DNA of 21,496 bases from a virus: positions 1-21,496 of IMG/VR virus record IMGVR_UViG_3300019880_000010. The stretch is one strand, 5' to 3'. Position numbers and translations under genes: made by a program. The notes below the pieces were generated by a model that saw nothing but the letters and a program-made list of their open reading frames with translations, did not search any database and was not told the origin of the DNA. Below, one piece after another: positions 18,861-21,457 of the stretch; the stretch's first letter is position 1, and each line of letters starts with the position of its first letter.

Positions 18861-19408
18861 CGGTGGGCCCGGTCGAAGTCGAGGGCCTTGTTCCGCTCCC
18901 GGATGTTGTGGACGGCACAGTACCCGCGCGTGAGGACAGAGGCGACGGCGGCCACCTTCGCCCACTTGCGGATCGCGGGCTTCTCGCTGTGTAGGCCCCA
19001 GGTGATGACGCCCAACTCGGCCGCACTCCACGCTAGGCGCCCGCCGAAGGACTGCATCCCCGGCGTCCGGTTCTGTTCCCACGCCGGCCGCGGTTTGTAG
19101 CCCGGGGTCGTGAGCCCGTCCAGGACGAGCACACGCTCGGTGGTGACCTGGTCGGCGACGATCGCGCCGGCAACCGCGGCGCTCCAGAGGTGGGCGTCGC
19201 GGGCGTCGTAGCCGCGGACGGGCGTGACGAGCTGCACGGCGGGCAACGGCGGGCCGCAGGGCTCGGCCTGGGCGACACCGGCAAGGGACAGCACGAGGAT
19301 GCAAGTGGACGCTGAGCGGTGCCAGATTGGTGCCACTTTGCGCTGCGACTCGGCCTGTTTCTGGCGCGTGCGAAGGTTGCAACCTGCTGATTCTACGTGT
19401 TGGGCCAT
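18857..19408 (-). CDS. Secreted or membrane protein of unknown function
   Basis: The minus-strand frame from ATG at 19406-19408 gives 183 residues. A signal-peptide core (STCILVLSLAGVAQA, cleavage near residue 48) is preceded by an unusually long leader. GTG at 19334-19336 (residue 25) would give a normal signal peptide and a 159-aa product, and may be the true start. The mature part has three moderately hydrophobic helices (LWSAAVAGAIVADQVTT, GRLAWSAAELGVITWGLHS, WAKVAAVASVLTRGYCAVHN). Stop codons of this gene and the tail gene interlock in CTAG 18857-18860. I do not recognise a family. A lysogenic conversion or lysis-related role is possible but unsupported by any motif. Confidence 0.6.
   Translation of the reverse strand: MAQHVESAGCNLRTRQKQAESQRKVAPIWHRSASTCILVLSLAGVAQAEPCGPPLPAVQLVTPVRGYDARDAHLWSAAVAGAIVADQVTTERVLVLDGLTTPGYKPRPAWEQNRTPGMQSFGGRLAWSAAELGVITWGLHSEKPAIRKWAKVAAVASVLTRGYCAVHNIRERNKALDFDRAHR
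19372..19384 (+). repeat. Direct repeat copy 1 (GAAGGTTGCAACC), palindromic core
   Basis: GAAGGTTGCAACC contains the perfect palindrome GGTTGCAACC (19375-19384). A 12/13 matching copy lies 55 bp downstream. Next to an integrase operon such repeats may be integrase or excisionase binding sites. Confidence 0.5.
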
Positions 19409-19426
19409 GTTTCACCATGGCCAGCG

Positions 19427-19439
19427 GAAGGTTGAAACC
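19427..19439 (+). repeat. Direct repeat copy 2 (GAAGGTTGAAACC)
   Basis: This copy differs by one base from the repeat at 19372-19384. It lies inside a larger inverted repeat, GCGGAAG 19424-19430 with CTTCCGC 19457-19463. A separate hairpin, GGCCATG 19403-19409 with CATGGCC 19416-19422, lies between the two copies. Confidence 0.5.
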
Positions 19440-19440
19440 G

Positions 19441-19465
19441 ATTCGATTCCTACCCGCTTCCGCCA
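19441..19465 (+). other. attP: Candidate attP core: 3' end of a tRNA-Ser-like gene
   Basis: The stretch carries a T-loop-like ATTCGATTC and ends CGCTTCCGCCA, which is exactly the 3' acceptor strand, discriminator and CCA of bacterial tRNA-Ser genes such as E. coli serT. No 5' half of a tRNA precedes it; only the 3' fragment is present, as in attP sites of phages that integrate into tRNA genes. It sits in the only non-coding stretch beside the integrase operon. One extra base relative to a regular tRNA T-arm/acceptor spacing is a weakness. Confidence 0.42.
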
Positions 19466-19488: not shown

Positions 19489-20007
19489 TTAGGGCCCTGG
19501 GGACGTCCCGGTGCCACCTTCGCGCAATCGCCGTTTGCCGTTCAAGAGAGGCTTTAGCTGCTCGATCAGGTTCGCCTCAAGCGCACGCGCCCCCTCGCTG
19601 TCGATGCACCGAATGATCTGGAGGCTGTCGCCGATAAGGATCGACTGGAGACGATGATGCCTTGGGTCCAGCGGCCGCAGCAGGCCCTGTGATGACATGC
19701 CGACGTACAGGGCTTCCGAGTTGCGCGACCAGAGATAGACGAGCGGTCCGCGAAGGATTTGGATCTGGTGCCCGGTGAGGGTGAAGACGGTCCCCTTCGC
19801 CTCTCTTGCCGCTTTGTGTGTGGCCATCCCCTCCTTTAGTGCCAGTTCCGCTTCCTCGCGAGTGAAGAATCCACCCTTGCGAATCTTCTTCCCCATCTTC
19901 CTGTCGTGGTACGTAAACGACCATCGAGTGCTTCGACAGGCTTCGCCGGTCTTCTTACTTATTCTGGTGCGCTGGTAAACCGATCCGGAGCCGTAGACCT
20001 TGTTCAT
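19489..20007 (-). CDS. Arm-binding-like domain fused to GIY-YIG nuclease domain
   Basis: A 172-residue protein starting at ATG 20005-20007, overlapping the integrase stop by ATGA. The frame is open further upstream but antisense-free evidence favours this coupled start, with the N-terminus MNKVYGSGSVYQRTRISKK. Residues 5-70 read like the three-strand plus helix arm-binding domain at the front of tyrosine integrases (WSFTYHDRKMGKKIRKGGFF, TREEAELALKEG). Residues 86-156 resemble GIY-YIG: GPLVYLW (Y91), ALYVGMS (YVG at 101-103), basic RPLDPRHHR, and ALEANLIEQLKPLLN with E144 or E149 and N156. No integrase core is present. A DNA-nicking or att-site accessory role is inferred; the nuclease fold call is moderately strong. 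Confidence 0.7.
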   Translation of the reverse strand: MNKVYGSGSVYQRTRISKKTGEACRSTRWSFTYHDRKMGKKIRKGGFFTREEAELALKEGMATHKAAREAKGTVFTLTGHQIQILRGPLVYLWSRNSEALYVGMSSQGLLRPLDPRHHRLQSILIGDSLQIIRCIDSEGARALEANLIEQLKPLLNGKRRLREGGTGTSPGP

Positions 20008-21083
20008 CTGAACGTTCTCACCTTCCGCGTCCCAGGCAACTTCCCCACATAGGCCGCGGTTCGAAGAATCGCCTCCCGAATATCCTCGGTCGAGGTGATG
20101 TTGTAGCGGTCGAACGTCGAGCGCGTCCGGTGGCCGCTGATGCGCATGGCCACCGTGTAGTCCGTCCCGCCCCTGATGAGGTTGCGCAGGGCGGTCCTGC
20201 GGAGGTCGTACGGGCGCAGGGAAGGGGGAAGGCCCGCCGTCTTCAGCGCATCGCGCCAGAGCTTCACGTAGCTCTTCACGGGCTGCCCAGGCTGGAGGCG
20301 GCTGGTCCGATGGAAGATGAGCGAGGTGTCCAGCCGCCGGGCCTTCCAGCGCCGGTCCATGATGGTGCGCAGTGGGCCCTCGAGGGCGATCACCCGGCCA
20401 CGCCGCCCCTTGTCGTCCTTCGGGTCGAGGTTGATCGTCTGGGCCTCCCGGTCCACGGTCGCCCACGTCAAAGACCGGATCTCCCCCGGGCGCATCCCCG
20501 TCCAGGCAAACCACTCGAGGAAGTCCCGGACATCGGGGTCGGCGATCGCCCGGAGCAGCGCTTGCAGGTCGCCCTTGCCCAGGAAGCCCTGGCGGGCGTT
20601 CTGGACCTTCAGGAGGGGGACGTAGGGGATGGCCTTGAGTTTCGCCGGGGTCGAGCGCGCGGCGAGGCGGAAGGCTTGCCGGAGACGCTCGCACTCCCGG
20701 TTGACCGTGGCGGGCGCGCGCCCGAGGTCGAGCCGCTCCTGCTGGTAGGCCCGGATGCTGGCGGTGTCGAGCCGGGCCGCTTGGCGGTGCCCGAGCTCCT
20801 CGCGGAGCGTCTTCAGGTGGGAGCGGATCTTCCCGAGGCCCGCCACTCCCCGGAGCCGGAGGTCCGCGTCAAGGTCCGCGAGCAGCTCCTTCACTGTGAC
20901 GCCGCGCTCGGCCGGGGAGGTGTACTCGCCGCGTTCCCTGGTCTTGCGGAGCCGGCCGAGGCGCTTCTCGGCAATCACCCGGTCCGTGGTCTTGAGGGAC
21001 TCGCGGACGCGGCGGCCATCGATCACGCCGAGGTCCGCGTACCAGATGCCGCGCTTCCGGTAGAGCCGGGGGTCACCACGCAT
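20004..21083 (-). CDS. int: Tyrosine recombinase phage integrase
   Basis: A 359-residue integrase that would join phage and host attachment sites. The N-terminal arm-binding part is PRLYRKRGIWYADLGVIDGR with LKTTDRVIAEKRLGRL. A SAM-like core-binding region spans about 60-160 (TVKELLADLDADLR, DTASIRAYQQERLDLG, TVNRECERLRQAF). The catalytic domain has R198 in TGMRPGEIRSLTW, a beta-hairpin lysine (K222 or K225) in DPKDDKGRRGRVIAL, R295 in PYDLRRTALRN, H318 in SGHRTRSTFDRY and nucleophile Y327. The box II histidine is replaced by Y292. The start ATG 21081-21083 follows the lipoprotein stop by 5 bases, and the stop overlaps the GIY-YIG gene, so the three genes form one transcription unit. Confidence 0.95.
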   Translation of the reverse strand: MRGDPRLYRKRGIWYADLGVIDGRRVRESLKTTDRVIAEKRLGRLRKTRERGEYTSPAERGVTVKELLADLDADLRLRGVAGLGKIRSHLKTLREELGHRQAARLDTASIRAYQQERLDLGRAPATVNRECERLRQAFRLAARSTPAKLKAIPYVPLLKVQNARQGFLGKGDLQALLRAIADPDVRDFLEWFAWTGMRPGEIRSLTWATVDREAQTINLDPKDDKGRRGRVIALEGPLRTIMDRRWKARRLDTSLIFHRTSRLQPGQPVKSYVKLWRDALKTAGLPPSLRPYDLRRTALRNLIRGGTDYTVAMRISGHRTRSTFDRYNITSTEDIREAILRTAAYVGKLPGTRKVRTFR

Positions 21084-21088
21084 TCAGG

Positions 21089-21457
21089 TCAGCGGACTTC
21101 GGTGAAGATCCAGAATACGCCGTTCGAATTGGTGATCTGGACGGTGCCGCCTGCGGTGATGAGGTAGGTCCCCTCGAACTTCGTCTGGTTGAATCCGGTG
21201 CCCATGAGTTCGTTGACTACCAGGTTCCCGGCGATCTTGACGATGAAGTTCGAGGCGAACTCGGTGTAGGTCGCGCCGATCTTGATGCGGGTGATCCGGG
21301 CCGGGAGGTCAAAGACGTTGTCGCCAGAGCCGGAGATGGTGAAGATCGCGGGCAGCGTGGTTGGTGGCGGGGTGGACGGCGAGGTGGGGGAGCTTCCGCC
21401 GCCGCACGCGGGCAGAAGTAGGGCGACCGACAGCAAGCCCGGCAGCATCTTGTTCAT
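21089..21457 (-). CDS. Lipoprotein of unknown function, first gene of the integrase operon
   Basis: A 122-residue protein with a clear ribosome-binding site (AAGGAG, 6 bases before ATG 21455-21457). MNKMLPGLLSVALLLPACGG has a lipobox LPAC with C18 as the lipidation site, followed by a Gly/Ser/Thr/Pro-rich linker. The mature domain is all-beta: IFTISGSGDNVFDLPARITR, FIVKIAGNLVVNELMGTGF and VQITNSNGVFWIFTEVR. Similar small beta lipoproteins are common in environmental high-GC bacteria. Being 5 bp upstream of int, it may be expressed in the lysogen; a surface or superinfection-exclusion role is a reasonable guess only. The 39 bases upstream, to the window end, hold only its ribosome-binding site. 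Confidence 0.8.
   Translation of the reverse strand: MNKMLPGLLSVALLLPACGGGSSPTSPSTPPPTTLPAIFTISGSGDNVFDLPARITRIKIGATYTEFASNFIVKIAGNLVVNELMGTGFNQTKFEGTYLITAGGTVQITNSNGVFWIFTEVR

Follow-up and report, generated by a model that had tools for sequence, protein, structure and literature searches.

I-TevI and the GIY-YIG Seg nucleases are associated with homing in which cutting takes place away from the binding site, with co-conversion, and with marker exclusion (PMC2988022). The phage gene described here resembles SegA-SegG and I-TevI of T4-like phages (PMC2988022) in its expected GIY-YIG catalysis, its intergenic position, its presence or absence in relatives, and its separate DNA-binding module. 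On the other hand, its DNA-binding module is N-terminal and integrase-arm-like, the gene lies in temperate phages at the junction of int and attP, and its cleavage and homing are putative. The arm domains of lambda Int (PF09003) and of Tn916-type integrases (PF14657) belong to the same Pfam families as the N-termini reported below, which score above cut-off in one relative (L075) and below it in the gene under study; unlike those integrase arms, the arm is fused to a nuclease and is not followed by a recombinase core. UvrC and Cho are closest to the GIY-YIG domain by Foldseek, phmmer and NCBIfam, but the present protein has neither helix-hairpin-helix nor UvrB-interaction parts, and its gene is linked to an integrase gene and not to repair genes. 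Like excisionases and other recombination directionality factors it is a small, predicted DNA-binding protein encoded beside int; in contrast to them it carries a nuclease domain, and its relatives keep a separate excisionase. In the open-access literature we found no description of integrase-arm/GIY-YIG proteins or of their linkage to int, which is no proof of absence, and a 2006 survey of the GIY-YIG superfamily (PMC1564403) does not mention integrases. We class the system as a variant of free-standing homing-type nucleases for which no description was found in this literature.

The stretch of DNA analysed (the window) is an IMG/VR virus record of 21,496 bases. Its + strand carries lambda-like head and packaging genes (terminase GpA, portal, capsid/protease, tape measure), and int and the nuclease gene follow each other on the opposite strand (see table). 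The int product (P0002) is a tyrosine recombinase according to Pfam (PF00589, E=1.4e-17) and matches the phrog_1 integrase in PHROGs (E=1.1e-46). The stop codon of int (TGA, 20006-20004) and the start codon of the nuclease gene (ATG, 20007-20005) have the ATGA overlap in common that the original prediction had pointed out, and from which translational coupling of the two genes may be inferred. GC content is 59.3% in the nuclease gene vs 69.7% in int. Viral contigs yielded a single relative of the window int (L002, 57% identical), and genome contigs and phage records yielded none; this nearest int has no nuclease gene beside it and offers no common attP for alignment.

The putative attP core begins 23 bp past the nuclease stop codon. 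Its 24-nt TTC-to-CCA spacing suggests tRNA-Sec (selC), an assignment which we presume from E. coli selC; Rfam and ARAGORN report no tRNA at this position. Short repeats on both sides of this core are candidate arm-type sites. Two of them are copies of one repeat (D2), of which there are no further copies in the window. The motifs were picked from the attP region itself, and hence their statistics are merely suggestive. As a separate observation, GCGGAAGGTKRRAAC occurs in the window in two copies only, one by the putative attP core (19424-19438, +) and one just upstream of the nuclease ATG (20014-20028, -); this motif was chosen post hoc. Directly upstream of int lies a small lipoprotein-like ORF (21089-21457, -) of 122 aa with a signal peptide and Cys, which has no family match in PADLOC, Pfam or PHROGs.

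Table. Features of the int-nuclease region of the window, and GIY-YIG genes of other records that encode an apparent helix-turn-helix (HTH).
Feature	Record	Coordinates	Strand	Basis or remark
int, tyrosine integrase, 359 aa (P0002)	window	20004-21083	-	right end of window; N-terminus with short arm-like segment
Arm-domain/GIY-YIG nuclease gene (predicted), 172 aa (P0001)	window	19489-20007	-	ORF; AlphaFold2; Foldseek; catalytic residues kept; GC
Stop/start overlap ATGA, int/nuclease gene	window	20004-20007	-	sequence
Probable DNA-binding domain of integrase arm type at the N-terminus, aa 1-76	window	19780-20007	-	PF14657; AlphaFold2 beta-beta-beta-alpha
GIY-YIG catalytic domain (predicted), aa 85-157	window	19537-19755	-	Foldseek 1ycz, E=6.8e-5; 42% identity over 74 aa to the viral GIY-YIG protein of L006
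Putative attP core TTCGATTCCTACCCGCTTCCGCCA	window	19442-19465	+	resembles tRNA 3' end
Candidate arm-type site GAAGGTTGAAACC	window	19427-19439	+	repeat D2; partner copy 19372-19384
Candidate arm-type site GAAGGTTGCAACC	window	19372-19384	+	repeat D2
Candidate arm-type site AAGGTGGCACC	window	19510-19520	-	inside 3' end of nuclease ORF
Candidate arm-type site AAAGTGGCACC	window	19329-19339	-	weaker copy 11 bp off, 19318-19328
GIY-YIG protein with apparent HTH	L056	669-1265
GIY-YIG protein with apparent HTH	L138	8599-9177
GIY-YIG protein with apparent HTH	L137	10447-10938
GIY-YIG protein with apparent HTH	L026	2548-3192

Structure prediction identifies the C-terminus of P0001 as a GIY-YIG nuclease domain, in line with the original prediction. 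AlphaFold2 models residues 81-160 with pLDDT mostly of ~78-95 (dipping to ~70 at residues 111-120), and the top nine Foldseek matches of this model are all UvrC GIY-YIG domains, with 1ycz as the best one. The motifs VYL and YVG take the place of the GIY...YIG strands. A Pfam search of P0001 did not call GIY-YIG, and sequence libraries gave matches below threshold only (Cho, E=0.024; UvrC, E=0.22). All the residues named beforehand as GIY-YIG features are present in P0001; across 11 aligned proteins Y91, Y101, G103, E144 and N156 are invariant, as is R111, but E149 is not. Since Y91, Y101, R111, E144 and N156 are retained in these homologues, P0001 is expected to be an active nuclease. Close homologues of P0001 were detected neither in viral or genome contigs (8-mer seeds) nor in phage and plasmid records (tblastn). 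The subfamily signature YVG.S..GL.RP, used to find relatives of the nuclease domain, retrieved L006 and L094, in which the domain has other attachments.

The N-terminus of P0001 is a candidate integrase arm-type domain, which we consider probable on the basis of sequence comparison and modelling. Its best Pfam match is the integrase arm domain PF14657 (Arm-DNA-bind_4; E=0.0014, with 18.6 bits vs a curated cut-off of 22.3), and it matches the N-terminal part of the phrog_1 integrase at E=0.21. AlphaFold2 predicts three strands and a helix (E-E-E-H; pLDDT ~75), from an input alignment that included integrase arms. These data agree with the likeness to integrase arm-binding domains originally claimed, but a PDB fold search with the model returned no arm domain among its matches, and the comparison with the window integrase gave no support either: the window's own int ranks 9th of 24 (z=0), and a profile comparison of the two N-termini is not significant, with 5 of 60 shuffles scoring equally high. 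This weakness would suit an explanation that concerns the window only, in which P0001 is a free-standing GIY-YIG protein of unrelated origin whose generic AP2-like domain has nothing to do with integrase arms, and whose gene came to lie beside int by chance. In the (poorly resolved) nuclease-domain tree the window copy likewise stands apart from the main int-linked clade. However, Pfam matches the N-terminus best to an integrase arm domain, and the position of the gene, immediately behind int and ahead of a putative attP, recurs in relatives, so that we regard a chance neighbourhood as decidedly unlikely.

For 10 relatives with an int-linked, arm-like N-terminus, each N-terminus was compared with 24 integrase N-termini; the protein's own integrase ranked first in 6 of the 10 and among the top three in 9, with z of 7.6-33. 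Binding of the same arm sites by both proteins, as originally proposed, is thus strongly supported in relatives, though not by the window pair. Five N-terminal types can be distinguished, namely the lambda-type PF09003 (L075 group), the type of L019, L031, L079, L099 and L133 (which we read as typical of alphaproteobacterial integrases), that of L043 and L139, that of L015, and that of the window. The L075 protein has both PF09003 (lambda-Int arm) and PF01541 (GIY-YIG), each above the Pfam cut-off. Arm fusions appear in about four places of the nuclease-domain tree, which has few well-supported branches and does not exclude a single origin. In the nuclease of L043 (13276-14040, +) a second integrase-like N-terminal segment seems to be present between the arm and GIY-YIG; this segment resembles an ORF near a tyrosine recombinase on Bradyrhizobium plasmids (L141, L142).

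About ten phage groups that are unrelated to one another have an arm-domain/GIY-YIG gene beside int. Viral contigs were scanned twice with nuclease-domain patterns only, and hence without selection for integrase neighbours. The stricter, GIY-only scan yielded 16 loci in 13 independent groups, with a tyrosine integrase within 300 bp in 10 groups, at 0.6-1.9 kb in two, and elsewhere in the record in one (P ~2e-8 to 2e-11 for 10 of 13, given an assumed null of 5-10%). In the broader scan, where other GIY-YIG subfamilies serve as an internal control, 21 of 126 GIY-YIG genes had int within 300 bp, and most genes of other subfamilies had no int nearby. None of the three outcomes that would have refuted the original prediction was obtained, as a GIY-YIG fold is predicted, the catalytic residues are retained, and the linkage to integrases recurs. 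A position always directly after int is a different matter: the gene precedes int in L133, is divergent in L015, and lies 0.6-1.9 kb off in L031 and L079.

Nuclease-free relatives of L084 and L106 allow the insertion site to be located. The two loci were compared with the Pseudomonas phages LESphi3, phi2 and LPPA33, the integrases of which are ~65-69% identical at the DNA level. In these three phages xis-int is followed immediately by AT-rich repeats and the attachment region, which we read as lying in the start of an arsC-like gene, and there is no nuclease. In L084 and L106 the int stop 'GTGGCATAATCT' is followed by the nuclease gene and then by the attachment region common with LESphi3 and LPPA33; behind the same int end come 'AAACAGGAGACAAA', the ORF of the nuclease, and repeats of a similar kind. 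L084 continues into the same attachment sequence as LESphi3-type phages, and the L106 contig stops there. The nuclease of L084 and L106 is inserted exactly between int and attP, as an intergenic ORF of its own that is absent at the same site in LESphi3 and LPPA33. As a separate observation, Pseudomonas integrases with ~65% identity elsewhere reach 94-98% over the final 48 bp of int (L106 591-640, L144 4060-4110). This conserved 3' end may reflect a constraint at the DNA level or a footprint of recombination. It is not necessarily a co-conversion tract, since phages without the nuclease have it as well.

Divergence between loci gives signs that the nuclease gene may move separately from int. 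Among L075, L084, L106 and L125, the nuclease differs at 0-2 of 501 bp (0-0.4%) vs 75-93 of 1103 (7%) in int (P ~1e-12), and the upstream DNA is largely unrelated; computation shows an excess of recent spread of the nuclease in this phage group. L079 and L113 agree (0 of 549 in the nuclease vs 23 of 1131 in int), and L133 and L135 show the opposite (10 of 513 vs 1 of 1170). The GC content of the nuclease gene is lower than that of its own int in 11 of 11 pairs.

Based on this dataset, we hypothesize, at roughly even odds, that the gene has taken up residence between int and attP and encodes a GIY-YIG endonuclease of the free-standing homing type, which recognises arm sites and cuts junctions that lack the gene. 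The N-terminal arm-type domain would bind arm sites that are indispensable to the integrase; because the integrase needs them, these sites would stay conserved, so that an arm-domain nuclease would always find a target. The tethered nuclease domain would then cut near arm sites in int-attP junctions without the nuclease gene. If a co-resident copy were used to repair the cut, the nuclease would be installed, often together with the adjacent int end, or else the rival would be excluded. The carrier may be protected, as insertion of the gene would split the arm sites from the cut site. Computation supports this hypothesis with the fold and residues of the nuclease, the linkage to int, the partner-matched arms in relatives, and the insertion between int and attP. 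Arm-site binding, cleavage, spread by repair, and self-protection are steps which we infer. Insertion and mobility were shown in relatives only, since the searches returned nothing close to P0001, and the window copy presumably behaves as these relatives do.

The main rival to homing invokes the same chemistry. The nuclease of a lysogen may act as an exclusion weapon that binds the arm sites of superinfecting phages with its own integrase specificity and cuts their attP, so that they fail to integrate, with no homing involved. The logic of binding and cutting would be identical, and partner-matched arm domains would restrict the attack to phages relying on shared arm sites. However, attL and attR of the carrier retain arm sites, so that its self-protection would need explaining; near-identical nucleases beside integrases that have diverged by 7% point to spread of the gene; and no PADLOC defence family was matched. 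Exclusion without homing therefore appears unlikely. Among the roles suggested in the original prediction, the cutting of rival attachment regions, be it as homing or as exclusion, would fit best.

Steering of the direction of recombination, which had also been suggested, is weakened by the excisionase genes that persist upstream of int in nuclease carriers: PF07825 is found in the L075 group (E=2e-21), and HTH_17 in L043 (E=2.4e-9) and, weakly and below cut-off, in L099. A nuclease of the P0001 type as a stand-in directionality factor was rejected for this reason, and excisionase profiles do not match P0001. A broader role in the integration or the excision reaction, be it as directionality factor, as competitor for arm sites or as a nuclease that processes junctions, could draw on the stop/start overlap with int, which suggests coupled translation, and on the arm-type DNA-binding domain with its sub-cut-off PF14657 match. 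GIY-YIG enzymes elsewhere process branched DNA. Nevertheless, besides the retained excisionases, close int-attP modules exist without a nuclease (LESphi3, phi2, LPPA33), and neither the nucleotide-level sweep nor the foreign GC content suggests a core function, which makes such a recombination factor very unlikely.

A wider reading, doubtful as it is, may be considered beside the homing hypothesis. Temperate phages may repeatedly build a nuclease that copies the arm domain of their own integrase and polices the attachment site, either by cutting the int-attP modules of competitors or by regulating their own integration, and other phage-linked GIY-YIG proteins may reach the same att-targeting class with a helix-turn-helix. 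If true, arm sites of integrases would be exploited as targets of homing or exclusion, and phages or selfish genes would repeatedly have borrowed the integrase's own DNA-binding domain. This would provide a function for a set of genes beside integrases that lack annotation, account for some of the exchange of int-attP modules among temperate phages, and offer a source of nucleases directed at attachment sites.

Sinorhizobium phage NV1.1.1 (L140, OP484858.1, 2451-4336) encodes a divergent tyrosine integrase (PF00589, E=8e-7) and a GIY-YIG gene with a 4-nt overlap, both annotated as hypothetical; the N-terminus of this GIY-YIG protein looks like HTH_17/excisionase-type (E=0.06). In a second class of GIY-YIG proteins, judged by eye and with weak or absent Pfam support, an apparent helix-turn-helix (AlpA/excisionase-like) replaces the arm (see table). 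The genes of this type in L056, L138 and L026 are adjacent to int, and in L137 int lies elsewhere in the record.
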